From positions 1-51,472 of the forward strand of contig JAHHHH010000054.1 of NCBI GenBank assembly GCA_019359415.1: a stretch of DNA of 51,472 bases. Reading direction: 5' to 3'. The notes under the pieces were generated by a model. The model had not been told where the DNA came from. It ran no database searches and saw nothing but the letters and a program-made list of their open reading frames with translations. Made by a program: the position numbers and the translations under genes. Positions 43,588-51,472 of this stretch are shown piece by piece; the stretch's first letter is position 1; each line of letters opens with the position of its first letter. The stretch is from Iphinoe sp. HA4291-MV1 (lineage in GTDB: Bacteria > Cyanobacteriota > Cyanobacteriia > Cyanobacteriales > Nostocaceae).

Positions 43588-43728
43588 ACAAGTTTCCTAA
43601 TTCATAGTTCAGTACGAAGTTGGAGCCAATAATGAGATTTGATACAAATATCTTAGCTTCATAGTATAGGTTATCTTCTTAACAAATTAACAAATCAAAA
43701 AATGATTTTTATGGCTTTTTAATAACTT

Positions 43729-43854
43729 AAGTTGGTAGTTATCAAACAAGTGTCTTTTTCTAAGTACAAAATTTGTTTTTTTGTATTTGGCATTACTTAA
43801 AAATGGAAATTTTGTATCTTAATAATACCGTTTATGGGCATTAACTAGCAATTT
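43729..43854 (+). repeat. 126-bp non-coding element with 13-bp terminal inverted repeats, copy 1
   Basis: The left end AAGTTGGTAGTTA (43729-43741) is an imperfect inverted copy (11 of 13) of the right end TAACTAGCAATTT (43842-43854). The interior aligns throughout with the element at 50414-50555, sharing TAAGTACAAAATTT, GTATTT, TTGTATC and GTTTA in order. Similarity extends a few bases beyond the ends (AATAAC on the left, AC.TT.A on the right). It is too short to encode a transposase, so it resembles a MITE or a conserved structured RNA or regulatory element. Its inner left edge lies 142 bases upstream of the BY-kinase start. Confidence 0.8.
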
Positions 43855-44036
43855 ACGTTAATACAAAGACAAGGCTCAGTATTTCTCAACTTAATTAGCA
43901 CATAATAATGACAACATAAATTGCATCATTATTGCTAACGACTTTTACAATAAGGCAACTGCCATCCCATTTCTTTTAGATATGAGATGGTAGTCGCCCC
44001 GTCACCGTCATTTGTCTTTACGTCTTTACACTGAAC

Positions 44037-44245
44037 AAAGAAATAGTCACCGAGTAGGGGTTCAGGAGTCAGAATGACGACTGTGCGACGCTCGGTTGAC
44101 TTAAGGGTTCAGTCCCCACTGAATCTTCTCCTTCTCCTATCGGAACGGTGAGCCAATGCATACGCTGCGCGAATGATGAGCCTGGTCCACAAGACTTTTG
44201 AAGGGTGTGAATCCTCCACTGATTGAATTCTGACTTTTGACTTCT
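44037..44245 (+). repeat. Dispersed repeat, copy sharing GTGCGACGCTCGGTTGA with 49690-49910
   Basis: This segment contains GAGTAGGGGTTCAG, then GTGCGACGCTCGGTTGA, then a CCCCACTGAATC stretch. The same pieces in the same order occur at 49700-49800. The distance between the pieces differs, so the copies are diverged or rearranged. It has no coding potential. Confidence 0.65.
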
Positions 44246-44363
44246 TCTTCAATTCATTTGTCTTAATTACACCCTTAAATATAACTTTATTTCTTCAGTA
44301 ATTTCAAGTAGAAATCAGGAATTCTATTTAAAGAAACTGTAAAGTTTACCGCCCTACGGAGCC

Positions 44364-44517
44364 TACGGTGTACACACATCTCACTCAAAACCTCACCCTC
44401 GCTTTAGGGTGCGCTAAAATCTTTCCCTCTCCTTAACAAGGAGAGGGATGCCCGATAGAGCTCTTTGAGGTTCACCAGAGAGTTTTGAGTCATTCGATGA
44501 CTTGTGTGTACACCGTA
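44364..44517. repeat. 154-bp foldback element with perfect 15-bp terminal inverted repeats
   Basis: TACGGTGTACACACA (44364-44378) and TGTGTGTACACCGTA (44503-44517) are perfect inverted repeats. Inside them ACTCAAAAC (44383-44391) pairs with GTTTTGAGT (44482-44490). The centre carries a second perfect hairpin, CCCTCTCCTT-AAC-AAGGAGAGGG. CCTACGGAG flanks both outer sides (44354-44362 and 44519-44527), which may be part of a longer repeat or a target duplication. The architecture is that of a MITE. No open frame is present. Confidence 0.8.
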
Positions 44518-44617
44518 ACCTACGGAGCGAGCCTTATTACAATGAGTATCTGTGTGTGCTGATGAATTAACCAACAATAACCAACAAAGGCTGGTATTTT
44601 ATTTTTAAAGATCTCCC

Positions 44618-46066
44618 TTAGTAAGCACCTGCCTTATTAAAGACAACCTTGAGAGTTTTCAGCAAAATTTGTAGATCCAGCCATAAAGACCAATTCTCTA
44701 TATAAGCGATATCTAATTTCACCCCATCTTCAAAATTATCGATATCGGAGCGACCAGACACCTGCCACAATCCGGTAATGCCAGGTAGAACTTCTTGTCG
44801 GATAAAATGCTTTGTTTGGAATCTTTCTACATCCCTCATAGGGAGAGGACGAGGACCAACTAGACTCATCTCTCCAAGGAGAACATTAAACAGTTGCGGC
44901 AATTCGTCTAGACTGTAACGGCGCAGGAATTTACCTAACTGTGTGATGCGAGGGTCGTCTTTCATCTTAAAAAGAACCCCATCCTTGATTTCATTCTTTG
45001 CTTCTAGCTTTGCCTGCAAATTTTCCGCATCGGCAACCATTGTGCGGAATTTCCAAATCTTGAAACTCTTACCATGCAAACCAGCTCGATTTTGCCGGAA
45101 GAAGACTGCTCCTGAAGAATCTAACTTAATCAGTGTGGCTATCACCACATAGACAGGAGACAGCAAAAGTAACAGTACGATTGAACAACAAAGGTCAAAA
45201 CTCCGCTTTACCCAAAAATCACTGCCTGGGATGACTGGTGCTGGAATTGTCATACAAGTGACTTCACCAATCGTCCAAAATACGGATTTGGGGTGACGAA
45301 CTTCACCTTGTTGAGTTGGCAGTATTCGTAGAGTAATGCCAACTGTTTGGAAACACCAGCAAACATATAGACGGTCCTTGATAGCATTCCAAGAAACAAA
45401 AGCTTCTTCTATGCCCTGTTTGCATAGATCTTCAAAGGTTGTCTCTCGGTTCATCGGATCTAAACTGCTAGAGTCAGCAATTTTCTGCACAGTGTAGCAA
45501 TTCTCTTTCTGTATTATCTGAAGATGGCTTTCTTTGTCTTCCGGGTCAGTAATGAGAAAAACGGAATGGCGCATTGCTCCTCTACTACGAAGCAGTCTAA
45601 TAGCTACATCACAGCTAAAGTGAGCAGTACAGATGAAAACGACACAGAACAACCAAAACAGTAGAAAAGTTGAGCGCGAGACATAACTATCTGGCTCGTA
45701 GAGAAAGGCAATGAGCAAGAGTAAAAGTTCTGACAGCGTGACTGCTTTGATGAGACCAGGATAGTTACGACGATTGCTACCTGATCTGTATAGTCCTCCG
45801 ATCGCAATCATGCCTATTTCAACTGCCAGAACGAGCAGTTGAAAAGATACTTTTTGTGTCCAAGGCGATTCTAATGGAGTGCCATAAATGATTGCTAACT
45901 TCCATGCTAAGGTCAAAGAAATGACATCTAGCACCATAAGTGTTCCTACCCGCAGAAATTTGGTAGTTAATCCTTTGTATATCCTTGTGCCACTCGCTGA
46001 CCTTAAATCTGGTTTAAACCCTGAAATTAATAGAGATTCAGATGTTAAAGATTCAGATGCCACCAT
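44618..46066 (-). CDS. Polyprenyl-phosphate glycosylphosphotransferase (initiating sugar transferase)
   Basis: ATG 46066 is chosen because AGAGG lies eight bases upstream; other candidates are ATG 46072 and TTG 46096. The 482-residue protein has an N-terminal domain with about four helices, a degenerate CoA-binding-like middle, a fifth helix (FDLCCSIVLLLLLSPVYVVI) and the catalytic PglC/WcaJ domain. That domain shows FRQNRAGLHGKSFKIWKFRT, YSLDELPQLFNVLLGEMSLV, GPRPLP and GITGLWQVSGRS. It transfers a sugar phosphate to undecaprenyl phosphate and so starts each repeat unit. Confidence 0.93.
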   Translation of the reverse strand: MVASESLTSESLLISGFKPDLRSASGTRIYKGLTTKFLRVGTLMVLDVISLTLAWKLAIIYGTPLESPWTQKVSFQLLVLAVEIGMIAIGGLYRSGSNRRNYPGLIKAVTLSELLLLLIAFLYEPDSYVSRSTFLLFWLFCVVFICTAHFSCDVAIRLLRSRGAMRHSVFLITDPEDKESHLQIIQKENCYTVQKIADSSSLDPMNRETTFEDLCKQGIEEAFVSWNAIKDRLYVCWCFQTVGITLRILPTQQGEVRHPKSVFWTIGEVTCMTIPAPVIPGSDFWVKRSFDLCCSIVLLLLLSPVYVVIATLIKLDSSGAVFFRQNRAGLHGKSFKIWKFRTMVADAENLQAKLEAKNEIKDGVLFKMKDDPRITQLGKFLRRYSLDELPQLFNVLLGEMSLVGPRPLPMRDVERFQTKHFIRQEVLPGITGLWQVSGRSDIDNFEDGVKLDIAYIENWSLWLDLQILLKTLKVVFNKAGAY

Positions 46067-46192
46067 TCCCATTACCTCTGTATTTATATTGTACAAATAA
46101 ACATGTAATAGTTAAATTTATTACCCATTTAACTTACACACTGACTCTTGAAAACCTTAACGACAAAAAGTGCAGTATGTAAGTGCACTAGC

Positions 46193-46993
46193 TTAGTATT
46201 GCGAGGATGGTCGAGAGCGCTTTCTCAGAAGTTTGGTCAAAAGTTTTGTCAACTGTTCTTGTAGGATCCGATAAAAAAACAGTGGATTGCCAACCACATA
46301 ACGATGCCACAAACGTTTTGGTTGCGTGACCAATCTTGTTAACCACTCGAGACCGCGATCAGTCATCCAGCGCGGACCTCTGTAAACAGTGTCAGTATAA
46401 AAATCAAGACATGCACCCAAAGGCAGAAAAACTTTTGTCTCTATTCGCTCTGAATTATTCAAAATCCAATGTTCTTGTAACGGCATTCCAAAGCCGATAT
46501 ACAAGATATCTGGCTTAAATTTATTGATTTCTTGGATGACTAATTCATTTTCCTCACCAGACTTGTCAAAATAACCGTGATGTCCTTGCACTCTTAAATT
46601 TGGTGCAATCACTTTTAGCTTAGCGATCGCTTTATCTACGGTTCCTGGCTGACCAGCAAGTAGGAACAAGGAAACATTTTCCCGCTCGCAAACTTTGGCA
46701 AAATCTTCTATGTAATCTGGACAGGTCATGCGATGAGATGAATTCACACAGCAACCACAGAGTTTTGCTCCTAACAGAACACCAAAGCCATCGCAGAAAA
46801 CTAAATCAGATTTGTTGAGAAACTCTCTATACCAAGGCAGTTCATAGGCAAAATTCATTGCCCGAGTATTGACATGACCTATGATTGTTTTTTTCGGAAG
46901 TTTTGCTGCTTGGATAGCGTAGTCGATGAGTTCATTAACTTTGATTTTATGAAACCTAGTTCCAAGTAAGGATATCTCATCAAAATTTTGCAT
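46193..46993 (-). CDS. WecG/TagA/CpsF-family glycosyltransferase
   Basis: The 266-residue protein has the GT26 signatures: INTRAMNFAYELPWYREFL-like start (VNTRAMNFAYE), SDLVFCDGFGVLLGAKL, SLFLLAGQPGTVDKAIAKL, ILYIGFGMPLQEHWI and CLDFYTDTVYRGPRWMTDRG followed by LEWLTRL. These enzymes add the second sugar (often ManNAc-type) to the lipid-linked first sugar on the cytosolic side of the membrane. It is encoded directly upstream of the initiating transferase. GGAGGAA lies about ten bases before ATG 46993. Confidence 0.93.
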   Translation of the reverse strand: MQNFDEISLLGTRFHKIKVNELIDYAIQAAKLPKKTIIGHVNTRAMNFAYELPWYREFLNKSDLVFCDGFGVLLGAKLCGCCVNSSHRMTCPDYIEDFAKVCERENVSLFLLAGQPGTVDKAIAKLKVIAPNLRVQGHHGYFDKSGEENELVIQEINKFKPDILYIGFGMPLQEHWILNNSERIETKVFLPLGACLDFYTDTVYRGPRWMTDRGLEWLTRLVTQPKRLWHRYVVGNPLFFYRILQEQLTKLLTKLLRKRSRPSSQY

Positions 46994-47038
46994 TTAGATA
47001 GTTCCTCCTATCATTATTGAAGTCGTTCTCACCGATAC

Positions 47039-47374
47039 TCATAGCTTTAGACAGTAAGCGCGCATAAAAACAGATTGACATTCAAATATCTCAAATGCCT
47101 GATCAAGTTGGGTAAGTTCAAAAATGATTTTAATTGTGGGCGGAACAGAGCAAAGACTCAAGCGCCGCCCTAAGCGTTGAGCCTTTTTTAAACCAGCCAT
47201 CAAGGCCATCAATCCAGCACTGTCTAAAGATTCTACTTGCTCTAAATTAACTAACAAGGTAGAACAATGGTGTTGTCCGACTGCTGTTATTAACTCCCGC
47301 TCAAAGTCCAATGCATTTGTGGCATTTAGACAACCTTGAGGTCGAATCACTACAATTAGTGGATTGGCAAGCAT
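47039..47374 (-). CDS. STAS-domain protein (anti-sigma-factor antagonist type)
   Basis: ATG 47374, preceded by AGAGAAAAG, gives 111 residues. A TTG at 47422 would add 16 residues that do not belong to the fold. The STAS core is visible: VVIRPQGCLNATNALDFERE (strand 1 and helix 1), STLLVNLEQVESLDSAGLMA with the phosphorylatable serine in DSAG, and KIIFELTQLDQAFEIF. Such proteins are switched by serine kinases and phosphatases and bind anti-sigma factors. Lying next to the first polysaccharide genes, it may link the locus to a partner-switch signal; no kinase or phosphatase gene is nearby. Confidence 0.87.
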   Translation of the reverse strand: MLANPLIVVIRPQGCLNATNALDFERELITAVGQHHCSTLLVNLEQVESLDSAGLMALMAGLKKAQRLGRRLSLCSVPPTIKIIFELTQLDQAFEIFECQSVFMRAYCLKL

Positions 47375-47514
47375 CTTTTCTCTAATTTGGATCGAATTAG
47401 GTAATAAGTTTTCAATTCGCAAATGCGAAAAGCTTCACTACTTCAATCAGTCATCAGCCATCAGTTAAATTCAAAATTCTTTTTTGAATGCGTGAATGTT
47501 TGAGTAGCGAGTGG

Positions 47515-48681
47515 TCAACGTTTCGGAGCTTGATCAAACGCTCTTGCCATAGCATTCCATACCAACTTGGGTTTGAAGTTTGAGTCTAGTGGTAAAGGAC
47601 GCACTGGCGCTTTATCTGAGCGGGGAGTAAACATTGCAAGCCAAGAGTGTCTGTCGCTCAATCCCCAAGTCGAGACCGCAATGACTGCTCGCTGATCTAG
47701 CACCACAGAAAGATAGTCTTCGTACATAGCGGCGACAATGCGATCGCGCACAATGGGGTCTGAAGGTAATTGCTGATCTCTTACGTCTAGTTCGGTAACG
47801 AGAATTTTGAGACCAAGACTAGCTACGTTAGACAGAAAATTCCGTAGTTTTTTGGGATTTAAGGAAGCGTGACCTAACAGGTGAGATTGAATACCCAAGG
47901 CATGAATCGGTGTTCCTCTAGATTTCAAACGTTCTAGCAGTTTCAGAACAGCAGTTCTTTTGACTTCATCTTCAGGGGTGTTATGCTCCAACCCATTCTC
48001 GTTGTACATCAGCATAGCTTTGGGGTCGGCTTGCGCTGCAAGGCGATAGGCAAGCTCTATGTAATCTGGACCTAATAACTTGAGCCACGGACTTTGTCGC
48101 AAGCCTGCTTTTAGTCCATCATCTGGTTTAATAGCCTCATTGACCACATCCCAAGAGTGTATTTGACCAGCGTAGTGTTTGGTCACAGTTGTAATATGTT
48201 CCACCAAAAATTTTTCTGCATTTTGGCGGTTAACGACTTCTTTAAACCACTCAGGTAGTTGCTCATGCCACACTAAAGTATGTCCTCGAAAAAGCATATT
48301 GTGAGCGCGGGCAAATGCCGCCATCCAATCTGCTCTGCTAAAGTCAAACACGTCTGGACGAGGTCGCACAAATTGCCACTTGAGTTCGTTCTCCGGTGCC
48401 AAGATGCTGCACTCCCGAACAATACTAGCCCGTAAATTTTTGTCTGATGCAAGAACATCCTTCCCACAGGCTGTTCCGTAAATTAATCCTTTAGCTGCTG
48501 CACGTTTCTTCAAGGAAGCTTGCCCACCAGCTACTTGAAAATCTCTTTTCGGGTTGTCTAATGCATTGCTCAAGTACATTGGGTAACTATTTTTTCCCAC
48601 TGCGACTGCAGTAGCCCCTGCTAAACCTGATAGACCAATGTACAAAAAACGACGCCTGCTTTGTGACGAGTTTTTGAACAT
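47515..48681 (-). CDS. Tat-exported GH10 endo-beta-1,4-xylanase-like glycosidase
   Basis: The 388-residue protein starts with a twin-arginine signal: SQSRRRFLYIGLSGL, with S-R-R-R-F-L at residues 8-13 and a hydrophobic stretch to about 28. The GH10 barrel shows FRGHTLVWHEQLPEW, acid/base E182 in WDVVNEAI, GIQSHL and nucleophile E297 in LVTELDVRD. GH10 enzymes cut beta-1,4-xylan and some related beta-glycans. In an exopolysaccharide locus it more likely trims or releases the cell's own polymer than digests plant xylan. tatA is encoded at 23990. Confidence 0.92.
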   Translation of the reverse strand: MFKNSSQSRRRFLYIGLSGLAGATAVAVGKNSYPMYLSNALDNPKRDFQVAGGQASLKKRAAAKGLIYGTACGKDVLASDKNLRASIVRECSILAPENELKWQFVRPRPDVFDFSRADWMAAFARAHNMLFRGHTLVWHEQLPEWFKEVVNRQNAEKFLVEHITTVTKHYAGQIHSWDVVNEAIKPDDGLKAGLRQSPWLKLLGPDYIELAYRLAAQADPKAMLMYNENGLEHNTPEDEVKRTAVLKLLERLKSRGTPIHALGIQSHLLGHASLNPKKLRNFLSNVASLGLKILVTELDVRDQQLPSDPIVRDRIVAAMYEDYLSVVLDQRAVIAVSTWGLSDRHSWLAMFTPRSDKAPVRPLPLDSNFKPKLVWNAMARAFDQAPKR

Positions 48682-48861
48682 ATAGATAAAGATAGATAAA
48701 GATAACTAAAACCAGGAATATCTGAATTTTGAACTCAAATTGCTGTTAATAACCAACAGAGAAATCTATAATCATAGTCTCTCCAAAAATCCTTTGAGAT
48801 GAGAATATTGTTAACGCGATCTCTTGTCAATCAGAGATAGCTTAATACTTTTAATCTTCGC

Positions 48862-49578
48862 TTAAAATGAGCGATGGTAATCCCAATTACGATTATCTTC
48901 GGATATTTTCCTAAGTACACAAATATTACTGAAGATAAATCTTATCCTTCCGTAATCTTGTTCCAAGGGATTTTGAAGAAAACGTTTTGTAGATTTTGCT
49001 AAACCTTTCCAAATACTGGTTTTCATATCAATTTTCACCAACTCATAATCTCTGTTTCTTAAGACATAAGACACGACTTTTCTAACTCCAGGCATCCATA
49101 TATCGTCAAAAACGACATACCCTCCTACTTGTAATAATTTGTCAATGTAGAAGAAATCTACTAAAGTGTAGTCGAAATGATGTGAGCCATCAATGAAAGC
49201 AAAATCGAGTTTTTCTCTTTTGGCTAAAAGCTGAGGTAAAACTTCATGAGAACAGGACTCAAAAAAGCGTAAATTGTCTGCCAAATTTGCTTTTTTAACA
49301 TTCAGTAATCCAATAGATTTCCACATACTATTTTGCATTGGGTCAATGGCAGTATGGATTCCTGTACCTTTGTCCTGGTGTGCTTGACAAATAAACAGAG
49401 TAGACAAGCCGTAAGCCATGCCAACTTCTAGCGTTCTTTCCAGATTGTATTTTTGAATAAAATTCTTGAGAACTATACCAATATCATAAGGAGTCGCAGT
49501 AGGGAAAGGATTTATTGAATTTCCTTCCATATCCTTAACAGACTTGGTTGAATAAATTTCCTCTAAGAGTTGATTCAT
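48862..49578 (-). CDS. Class I SAM-dependent methyltransferase (Methyltransf_24 type)
   Basis: The 238-residue protein has TLEVGMAYGLSTLFICQAHQ as the SAM-binding motif, GIHTAIDPMQNSMWKS as the acidic second strand and LDFAFIDGSHHFDYTLVDF with YVVFDDIWMPGVRKVVSYVL, the features of Methyltransf_24 enzymes. It probably acts on a sugar or small phenolic. It is about 180 bases upstream of the xylanase on the same strand and could be the first gene of the exopolysaccharide region. No membrane segment is present. Confidence 0.87.
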   Translation of the reverse strand: MNQLLEEIYSTKSVKDMEGNSINPFPTATPYDIGIVLKNFIQKYNLERTLEVGMAYGLSTLFICQAHQDKGTGIHTAIDPMQNSMWKSIGLLNVKKANLADNLRFFESCSHEVLPQLLAKREKLDFAFIDGSHHFDYTLVDFFYIDKLLQVGGYVVFDDIWMPGVRKVVSYVLRNRDYELVKIDMKTSIWKGLAKSTKRFLQNPLEQDYGRIRFIFSNICVLRKISEDNRNWDYHRSF

Positions 49579-49689
49579 AACTAAATTCTTTTCGTAAATT
49601 ATATGGGTTTTGTCATTTATTCAAAAAGGCTAGAAAAATAGCTTTTGAGCAAACTTAGGGCTTTTCTATATTTAGACTTAACAAGAAAG

Positions 49690-49910
49690 AATTCAAGAGT
49701 AGGGGTCCAGAATGGACTGCGTCCCGCTGCGCTAACAGAATAGAATTGCGTGCGACGCTCGGTTGAATAATCGGGTTTAAGTCCCCCACTAAATCAAAGA
49801 TTTAGTGGTCAACAATAACGTGGCGGGTCTGAATCCCCCACTAATTGATTCTGAGCGGAGGCGGAGACGCTCCGCCTCCGCTCAGGACTTGCTGAATACT
49901 GAATTCTTCT
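49690..49910 (+). repeat. Dispersed repeat with a perfect 16-bp hairpin
   Basis: The segment contains GTGCGACGCTCGGTTGA and GAGTAGGGGT, shared with 44037-44245. At 49851-49885 it contains the hairpin CTGAGCGGAGGCGGAG (stem), ACG (loop) and CTCCGCCTCCGCTCAG, a perfect 16-bp stem. No T-run follows, so a simple terminator is unlikely. It overlaps the 3' end of the doubtful small frame on the minus strand. Confidence 0.75.
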
Positions 49911-50104
49911 TCAAAACTCCTAGTGTACTCAATGACAACTGCAAGCTTAAGTTCAAACTGAACATCCTTGTAGCCCTCGTACCTAAACATTCTTGTATAT
50001 CTACGAGTAAATTCACTCACAAAAGGATTTTCATCAGGGTGAATGCGCCTGAACAAATGGTTTACATCCTTATGCTCTATAAAAGCTAAGATTTGATTTC
50101 TCAA
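49841..50104 (-). CDS. Hypothetical small protein or gene remnant
   Basis: An 87-codon frame from TTG 50104 (AAGG four bases upstream) reads IEHKDVNHLFRRIHPDENPF, then EFTRRYTRMFRYEGYKDVQ and VVIEYTRSFEEEFS. The composition looks like a real protein, with many charged and aromatic residues. I do not recognise the family. The last 15 residues or so are encoded by the 49851-49885 hairpin, so the natural end was probably lost by insertion of that repeat. A truncated remnant is as likely as a working gene. Confidence 0.4.
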   Translation of the reverse strand: MRNQILAFIEHKDVNHLFRRIHPDENPFVSEFTRRYTRMFRYEGYKDVQFELKLAVVIEYTRSFEEEFSIQQVLSGGGASPPPLRIN

Positions 50105-50861
50105 CTTACCTTAAATAGAATATTTTACCGGGAAATGATTTGCACGACATGTTCCCGAGGGTTTTCTGAAACACTGTTGTATTGCGGTTAATGATACAGC
50201 ATATGTAAACTTATTAGCAAGTACCAATTTTTATTATTTATCATACAGCACTATGTGCTTATTAAGTAAACATTTTATTGATTCTAAAATATCTGAATAT
50301 TGTTAGCTTGACGTATGATTGTGAGAGTGCGCTGTAGTGCTATTTCATAACTCTTTCCAGAGAATATTATGAAACCCTTGCAGCTAAAGACTTTATGCAA
50401 TAATGAATAACCCAAGTTGCTAGTTATCAAAGTTGCTAGTTATCAAAAAGTACCTTGATTTAAGTACAAAATTTAATTTATTGGTATTTAGCAGTACTTT
50501 AAAACGTTTTTTTGTATCAACATAGATACTGTTTAGGGGTACTAACTAGCAACTTACATTGAATATTTGGGACTTTGTGTGAGAATTTAAAGTCCAAGTC
50601 CCTAACAGTGCCTGTTTTGTTGAATACTGAGTGACTAAATACCATCAATTTTTGTTGATACGAGATGTGAGCGCTCAAGGGGCGCGATTACACGCCCGCA
50701 ACGAATGAAAGAAACACCTCTTTCCCTTCTTCCCTGTTAAGAGTTCCTTGTGTTTCTTGAAAGTCCGTATAAAGATAGGTAACGACAACTTAATAAATCT
50801 GGTAGGTTAATGGTAAGGTAAGTTATTTTGCCTATCCTTGTTGACTTACTGGAAGGTTTTT
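50105..50861. other. Non-coding stretch, AT-rich, with the second 126-bp-type element
   Basis: About 750 bases without a recognised gene. It contains the inverted-repeat element at 50414-50555, a reverse copy of the GGAACTCTTAACAGG repeat at 50733-50747 and short palindromes around GAGCGCTC at about 50670. The promoter of the small gene at 50862 should lie in its last 100 bases. Confidence 0.55.
50414..50555 (+). repeat. Non-coding element with perfect 13-bp terminal inverted repeats, copy 2
   Basis: The left end AAGTTGCTAGTTA (50414-50426) and the right end TAACTAGCAACTT (50543-50555) are perfect inverted repeats. The left terminus is duplicated as a 16-base unit, AAGTTGCTAGTTATCA, at 50414-50429 and 50430-50445. 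Without the extra unit the element is 126 bases, exactly the length of copy 1 at 43729-43854, and it aligns along its whole length. GGTAC next to both termini extends the symmetry. It lies about 300 bases before the start of the gene at 50862. Confidence 0.82.
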
Positions 50862-51238: not shown

Positions 51239-51379
51239 CACTGAAAGTTGGTTTAGGCGATCGCGCTTTTGAAGCCTCCATTAAACAGAGCTTCTTTTTT
51301 ATTTTTAAGCTTTTTCCGTAATCCTTGGTACTTCTAGTGAAGGAAAGACTAGTACAACACGGCGGAAATAGAGTTACCA

Positions 51380-51472
51380 TTAAGCAGCCAAAACCTTGCC
51401 CTTATAAGTCCACTTAAATGGTTTCGCCATAGTGCGATTAAAGTAGTTGATGAAATCTTCGATGCGGGTTTT
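51380..51472 (-). mobile_element. C-terminal end of an IS630-family transposase (cut by window edge)
   Basis: The minus strand reads 30 residues, beginning KTRIEDFINYFNRTMAKPF and ending KWTYKGKVLAA, then a stop at 51380-51382. The I.xFI.yfN....PF.W.Y.G.pL pattern is typical of the last segment of IS630-type DDE transposases, where a family-wide F(I/V)..(W/Y)N...KPF(R/K)WT(Y/F) stretch precedes the end. The catalytic part lies outside the window, so intactness cannot be judged. Confidence 0.85.

Follow-up and report, generated by a model that had tools for sequence, protein, structure and literature searches.

The repeats and their borders

The window considered here is a whole contig of 51,472 nt from the cyanobacterium Iphinoe sp. 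HA4291-MV1 (JAHHHH010000054.1). It carries two short repeats, one on either side of a block of exopolysaccharide-type genes, which we number 1 (left) and 2 (right) by position. We take them, with considerable confidence, to be independent insertions of a miniature inverted-repeat transposable element (MITE) of 134 bp, non-autonomous, whose ends match those of an insertion sequence (IS) of the IS982 family. The two copies and their immediate borders are as follows.

43720..43724, no strand: left target duplication of copy 1, TAATA (a related single site is found in the empty sites of relatives)
43725..43858, + strand: MITE copy 1, 134 bp, delimited by the alignment of relatives, the flanking duplications and the empty site
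43859..43863, no strand: right target duplication of copy 1, TAATA
50404..50409, no strand: left target duplication of copy 2, TGAATA
50410..50559, + strand: MITE copy 2, 134 bp lengthened by a 16-bp tandem duplication at the left end
50414..50445, + strand: AAGTTGCTAGTTATCA twice in tandem, within copy 2
50560..50565, no strand: right target duplication of copy 2, TGAATA

A first-pass annotation of the window had described two copies in the same orientation, aligning over their full length and measuring 126 bp each once the 16-bp duplication of copy 2 is set aside, and this description holds: blastn gives 78% identity across all 126 bp (E=2.6e-19). It had also endowed them with 13-bp terminal inverted repeats. 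These are indeed present in both copies, but they are perfect in copy 2 only, copy 1 having one change per arm (AAGTTGGTAGTTA, TAACTAGCAATTT), and the true ends lie 4 bp further out. The flanking duplications, together with the alignment of 48 relatives of the element, add these 4 bp on each side, bringing the length from 126 to 134 bp. The consensus thus reads ACCC-AAGTTGCTAGTTA...TAACTAGCAACTT-ACGT, with ACCCAAGTTGCTAGTTA as its left end and ACGTAAGTTGCTAGTTA as its right end read inward. The duplicated 16-bp unit of copy 2, AAGTTGCTAGTTATCA, looks like a product of slippage, unlike the nested elements with tandem ends that we describe below.

Distribution of the element

The genome to which the window belongs (7.36 Mb in 140 contigs) holds five copies, four recognised by similarity and a shortened fifth by its ends, with 111 bp between the outer ends (contig C35). 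Twenty genomes out of 100, this one included, match copy 1 at E<=0.001, several of them over part of the element only, and they comprise all eight genomes of its own, Brasilonema-like, genus. The further copies that the first-pass annotation had proposed to look for in the genome and its relatives therefore do exist. When named genomes were scanned for the ends only, at least 117 stretches were retrieved; among the matches listed all but one are labelled cyanobacterial, many of them from Microseira wollei, where exact 13-mers number 380 in forward and 396 in reverse orientation (776 in total). A search of plasmids using a single copy (L013) gave no match. A contig labelled as an Aquificota metagenome-assembled genome (L072) bears an element with the same ends, and this reflects either a transfer or a mis-binned contig.

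Insertion at TA-rich targets

With its 134 bp the element is far too short to hold a transposase gene. Its terminal inverted repeats make 12 end pairs, each of them unchanged in 36-39 of the 39 copies of our alignment. These 39 rows are what is left of 48 copies collected by a profile search after nine had been dropped: L046, truncated at a contig end, and L015, L031, L033, L035, L088, L181, L096 and L109, of odd length or divergent. Perfect flanking repeats of 5-6 bp, mostly TANTA or TANNTA, border 29 of the 39. Re-pairing the flanks at random 2000 times gave a duplication to 7.7 copies on average and to 15 at most, the average being as high as this because the target itself is alike each time.

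Where copy 1 stands, all seven other genomes of the genus have an empty site, a single TAATA-like motif (TCATA in five, CAATA in one, TAAAA in one) that abuts a sequence resembling CAAAGACAA. For copy 2, a search for an empty site in the relatives found the left flank homologous just to ~50290 (~68-76% identity, at six relatives' loci out of six) and no match there for the right flank. Likewise, of an element that lies beside the wzc gene in two relatives (L029 in G001, L026 in G002), one flank alone is homologous to the window, so that no reciprocal empty site was found in it.

Movement has also been recent, since close copies occupy different loci: one relative (G004) has two such pairs, with support 0.96 and 0.99, and close pairs are found in G026 and G007 too. 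Finally, the element may have found targets in its own kin. Related elements with tandem ends of 17 bp (L060, L069, L083, the latter on the minus strand, L114 and L137) have an inner element flanked on both sides by TAGTTA, a site within the end itself, in five out of nine tandem-end cases, as predicted if one element inserts into another's end.

A probable IS982-family partner

IS of the IS982 family have ends that begin with ACC and create a short target duplication of variable length. The MITE has duplications of 5-6 bp and begins with ACCC in most copies, but at its right end ACGT or ACGC predominates when read inward. An intact transposase gene of this family (275 aa, 182.5 bits with NF033520, for a cut-off of 130) is present in the same genome (G000:C90), and the IS around it has AAGTTGCGAGTTA and TAACTAGCAACTT as ends, at a distance of 1061 bp; ACCC adjoins each end on its outer side, and TAATA flanks the whole on either side. 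A gene for a transposase with matching ends, which the first-pass annotation had suggested to look for, is thus at hand. A family search gave five full-length matches of equal score in genome G026; the four copies read there do not differ over 1059 bp, and at its own site each of the four has exact ends and the same type of target duplication. Exact ends are found on both sides of an IS on a plasmid of Sphaerospermopsis kisseleviana NIES-73, while a Nostoc plasmid IS has one exact end and the other with 2 mismatches.

Target duplications, the empty site of copy 1 and an intact IS982 gene between the same ends lead us to see the element as a MITE, which an IS982-family IS probably mobilises in trans, judging from the sequences compared. 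The observed basis of this reading is the absence of room for a transposase, the sharing of ends and target type, the intact gene in the genome, the empty site and the close copies at different sites; the MITE, one of the possibilities raised by the first-pass annotation, is the one that gained support. The transposase of the IS would bind the ends common to IS and MITE and would move the latter in trans into TA-rich targets (TANTA or TANNTA for the most part), 5-6 bp being duplicated. The conserved interior may aid the process, for example as a set of extra protein-binding sites.

Several observations weigh against this account. Ten of the 39 copies retain no perfect duplication of at least 4 bp, and two of the 39 (L026 and L029) represent one ancestral insertion inherited by two species. 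To the right of the empty site only ~20 bp aligns well in the relatives, homology returning near 44.28 kb. As for the partner, six of the 12 searched genomes that bear copies or ends have no IS982 match above the cut-off. These are Microseira, whose single partial match (71 bits) is without these ends, and, out of eight Brasilonema genomes, the five G001-G004 and G006. Within the genus, the own genome is alone in having an intact IS982 match with both ends; the best-scoring match of the genus (G007:C70), and others, lack them. Hence either the partner is only a subgroup of IS982, or the IS has been lost in contig breaks, as in G002. Lastly, the MITE interior, compared with five IS-bearing sequences, gave short AT-rich matches only and no convincing common sequence.

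Three contigs of G002 (C5, C18 and C92, corresponding to L196, L197 and L198) begin inside near-identical IS982-type ends, which shows that some IS copies are absent from assemblies. When unpaired ends were read, six in G004 and five in G002, L187 (G004) and L196-L198 (G002) were seen to run into IS982-type gene starts, broken in L187 and in L197 – the readable gene start of the latter has in-frame stops – while L199 (G002) turned out to be a short element with paired ends.

Other candidates were set aside. Pairs of ends at IS-like spacing in L152 and L090 might have been autonomous IS, but they contain host genes without transposases. That the element is an internally deleted IS is not in keeping with an interior unrelated to that of the IS compared. 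Nor did a search among partial matches reveal a transposase-bearing element carrying the MITE interior; it yielded the full-length copies L270 and L274, the truncated pieces L271 and L272, and a weak match, L273.

The exopolysaccharide block between the copies

The genes enclosed by the copies, which lie outside the element, are the following.

44618..49578, - strand: genes for a sugar transferase (PF02397), WecG (PF03808), a STAS protein (PF01740), a GH10 protein (PF00331) and a methyltransferase (PF13578), assigned by Pfam

By Pfam these are ordinary exopolysaccharide-type genes. The initiating-transferase, STAS, xylanase and methyltransferase genes named by the first-pass annotation are all recognised, the xylanase as GH10, and WecG is added to them. 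Could the two copies be the ends of a composite unit able to mobilise this block, as had been proposed? They are in the same orientation and 6.7 kb apart, a closeness that has p=0.018 among five positions placed at random (uniform placement). Furthermore, two of the enclosed genes vary among relatives, so that gene content is variable within an otherwise conserved block: the STAS gene (47039-47422) is present in three of seven congeners and the methyltransferase gene adjacent to copy 2 (48862-49578) in two of seven, the species concerned being different. Yet each copy has a target duplication of its own, TAATA for one and TGAATA for the other, so that the outer flanks of the pair differ, and the pair is therefore not a composite transposon. 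Their 134-bp versions show 71% identity in the 39-row alignment, and each copy clusters with copies from other species rather than with its neighbour. The core genes, moreover, have stayed in place: wzc, sugar transferase, WecG and GH10 genes are collinear in all seven relatives, none of which has copy 1, and no element is found there from wzc to the block's far end. In G006 the methyltransferase gene is present and the 15 kb scanned contain no element. Mobilisation of the block by the pair is accordingly very improbable.

Around the block, 13 loci of relatives revealed no element. In wider stretches of seven relatives, four (G001, G002, G004 and G005) have an element past a glycosyltransferase gene, on the other side of wzc. 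Together with the spacing of the pair, this suggests an exopolysaccharide region that tolerates or attracts insertions, and not a mobile unit.

Two other repeated stretches lie to the right of the block. One, at 50615-50764 and close to copy 2, matches very many places in Brasilonema genomes. The last ~125 bases of the window (51347-51472, the contig end) recur at 100% identity at several sites of the genome, among which is a contig end; they probably represent the end of a multi-copy IS at which the assembly was interrupted.

Folding and neighbouring genes

The repeats had alternatively been proposed to be a conserved structured RNA or a regulatory element. Single copies do fold better than the mean of their shuffled versions (z -2.2 to -5.4, in seven folds out of seven), one fold being equalled by 4/200 shuffles; such an excess is expected from the inverted ends. 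The consensus fold consists of the 12 end pairs only, none of which shows a compensatory change, without any pair in the interior, and Rfam gives no match at the gathering threshold. The target duplications and the empty site also speak against a structured or cis-regulatory RNA, as does the diversity of the neighbouring genes, and we deem this explanation most unlikely. A further nine copies (three from the own genome and six from G004) all lie between genes according to a simple call of open reading frames (ORFs), and inspection of the ORF starts by eye suggests that the genes beside them differ in kind; a role in regulating the host thus receives no support. Promoter-like sites between 43600 and 44000 number four, for a shuffled mean of 2.7 (sd 1.5), which is not clearly in excess. 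One copy (L034, in G007) stands apart from the other aligned copies in having an almost perfect inner hairpin, CCAATAACGAGTATTTATAAATACTCGTTATTGG.

A conserved interior of near-constant length

Two features of the element are left unexplained by mobilisation through IS982: an interior that is conserved, of near-constant length and absent from the IS, and genomes that have copies yet no matching IS found. Conservation in the interior comes in blocks (TTTAAGTACAAA, TACT, TTTTGTAT, ATAC), with a lag-1 autocorrelation of 0.51 that none of 5000 column shuffles reached. Among the 48 copies, 23 are of 134 bp, 11 of 133 bp and 14 of other lengths, from 119 to 143 bp; figures taken from the 39 rows would overstate this constancy, given the rows dropped.

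It is conceivable, and we put it forward tentatively, that the interior is selected as a DNA-protein binding array of GTAC/GTAT motifs in both orientations, serving transposition or the regulation of neighbours. The blocky conservation argues for it, and so does the fact that 34 of the 48 copies have kept 133-134 bp despite a median pairwise identity of 73% (39 aligned copies). Recruitment of the copies by whole-element similarity, however, creates a bias toward conserved interiors, and the same ends occur on other short elements whose interiors differ and whose length varies within the limits of the search pattern. No common function was seen among the neighbouring genes. Between the orthologous insertions L026 and L029 identity has fallen to 84%, against 88% and 92% in their flanks, and therefore no constraint is visible after insertion. 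Any constraint would seem to bear on the lineage as it moves rather than on a copy once inserted. The conserved blocks may then be accessory binding sites for the transposase or for a host factor. Going further, one might see the 134-bp MITE as a long-lived unit of nearly fixed size, not a decaying IS remnant, with an array of GTAC/GTAT type that is under selection across several cyanobacterial genera and recruits the IS982 transposase or a host factor; this we find rather doubtful. Were the interior needed, it would show how a MITE persists as a unit of near-fixed size across genera.

Comparison with known systems

MITEs moved by an IS are well known, cyanobacteria included, and the present element is ordinary in kind. 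What we gain is a concrete candidate pair within one cyanobacterial genome, a 134-bp MITE that shares its ends and its type of target with an IS982-family IS, and an explanation of the repeats around exopolysaccharide genes that calls neither for gene mobilisation nor for an RNA. Literature searches, including searches by end sequence and by IS982, MITE and Nostoc, found no description of this element, Nezha being compared by description only.

Nezha is reportedly due to Zhou et al. 2008. According to a passage of PMC3049150, this MITE of cyanobacteria is proposed to move in trans through an ISNpu3-like IS; PMC3733652 also names it and PMC10969869 cites it. So described, it resembles our element in being a cyanobacterial MITE with a proposed mobilisation in trans that is driven by an IS. 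MITEs are further mentioned in the microcystin genes of Anabaena (excerpt of PMC10969869), and a MITE survey of Anabaena variabilis figures as a reference in PMC3852290.

The short elements of Microseira wollei NIES-4236 have the same AAGTTGCTAGTTA/TAACTAGCAACTT ends as the MITE; unlike it, those read have a repeat-rich interior, GGCTAATGGCTAAT, and escaped the 134-bp profile. As for the IS982-family IS, those of G000:C90, of G026 and of the Sphaerospermopsis plasmid have the end ACCCAAGTTGCTAGTTA in common with the MITE, and in G000 and G026 they also have its TA-rich target duplications of 5-6 bp. They differ from it in their size of ~1.05-1.16 kb, in their transposase gene and in an interior that is unrelated.

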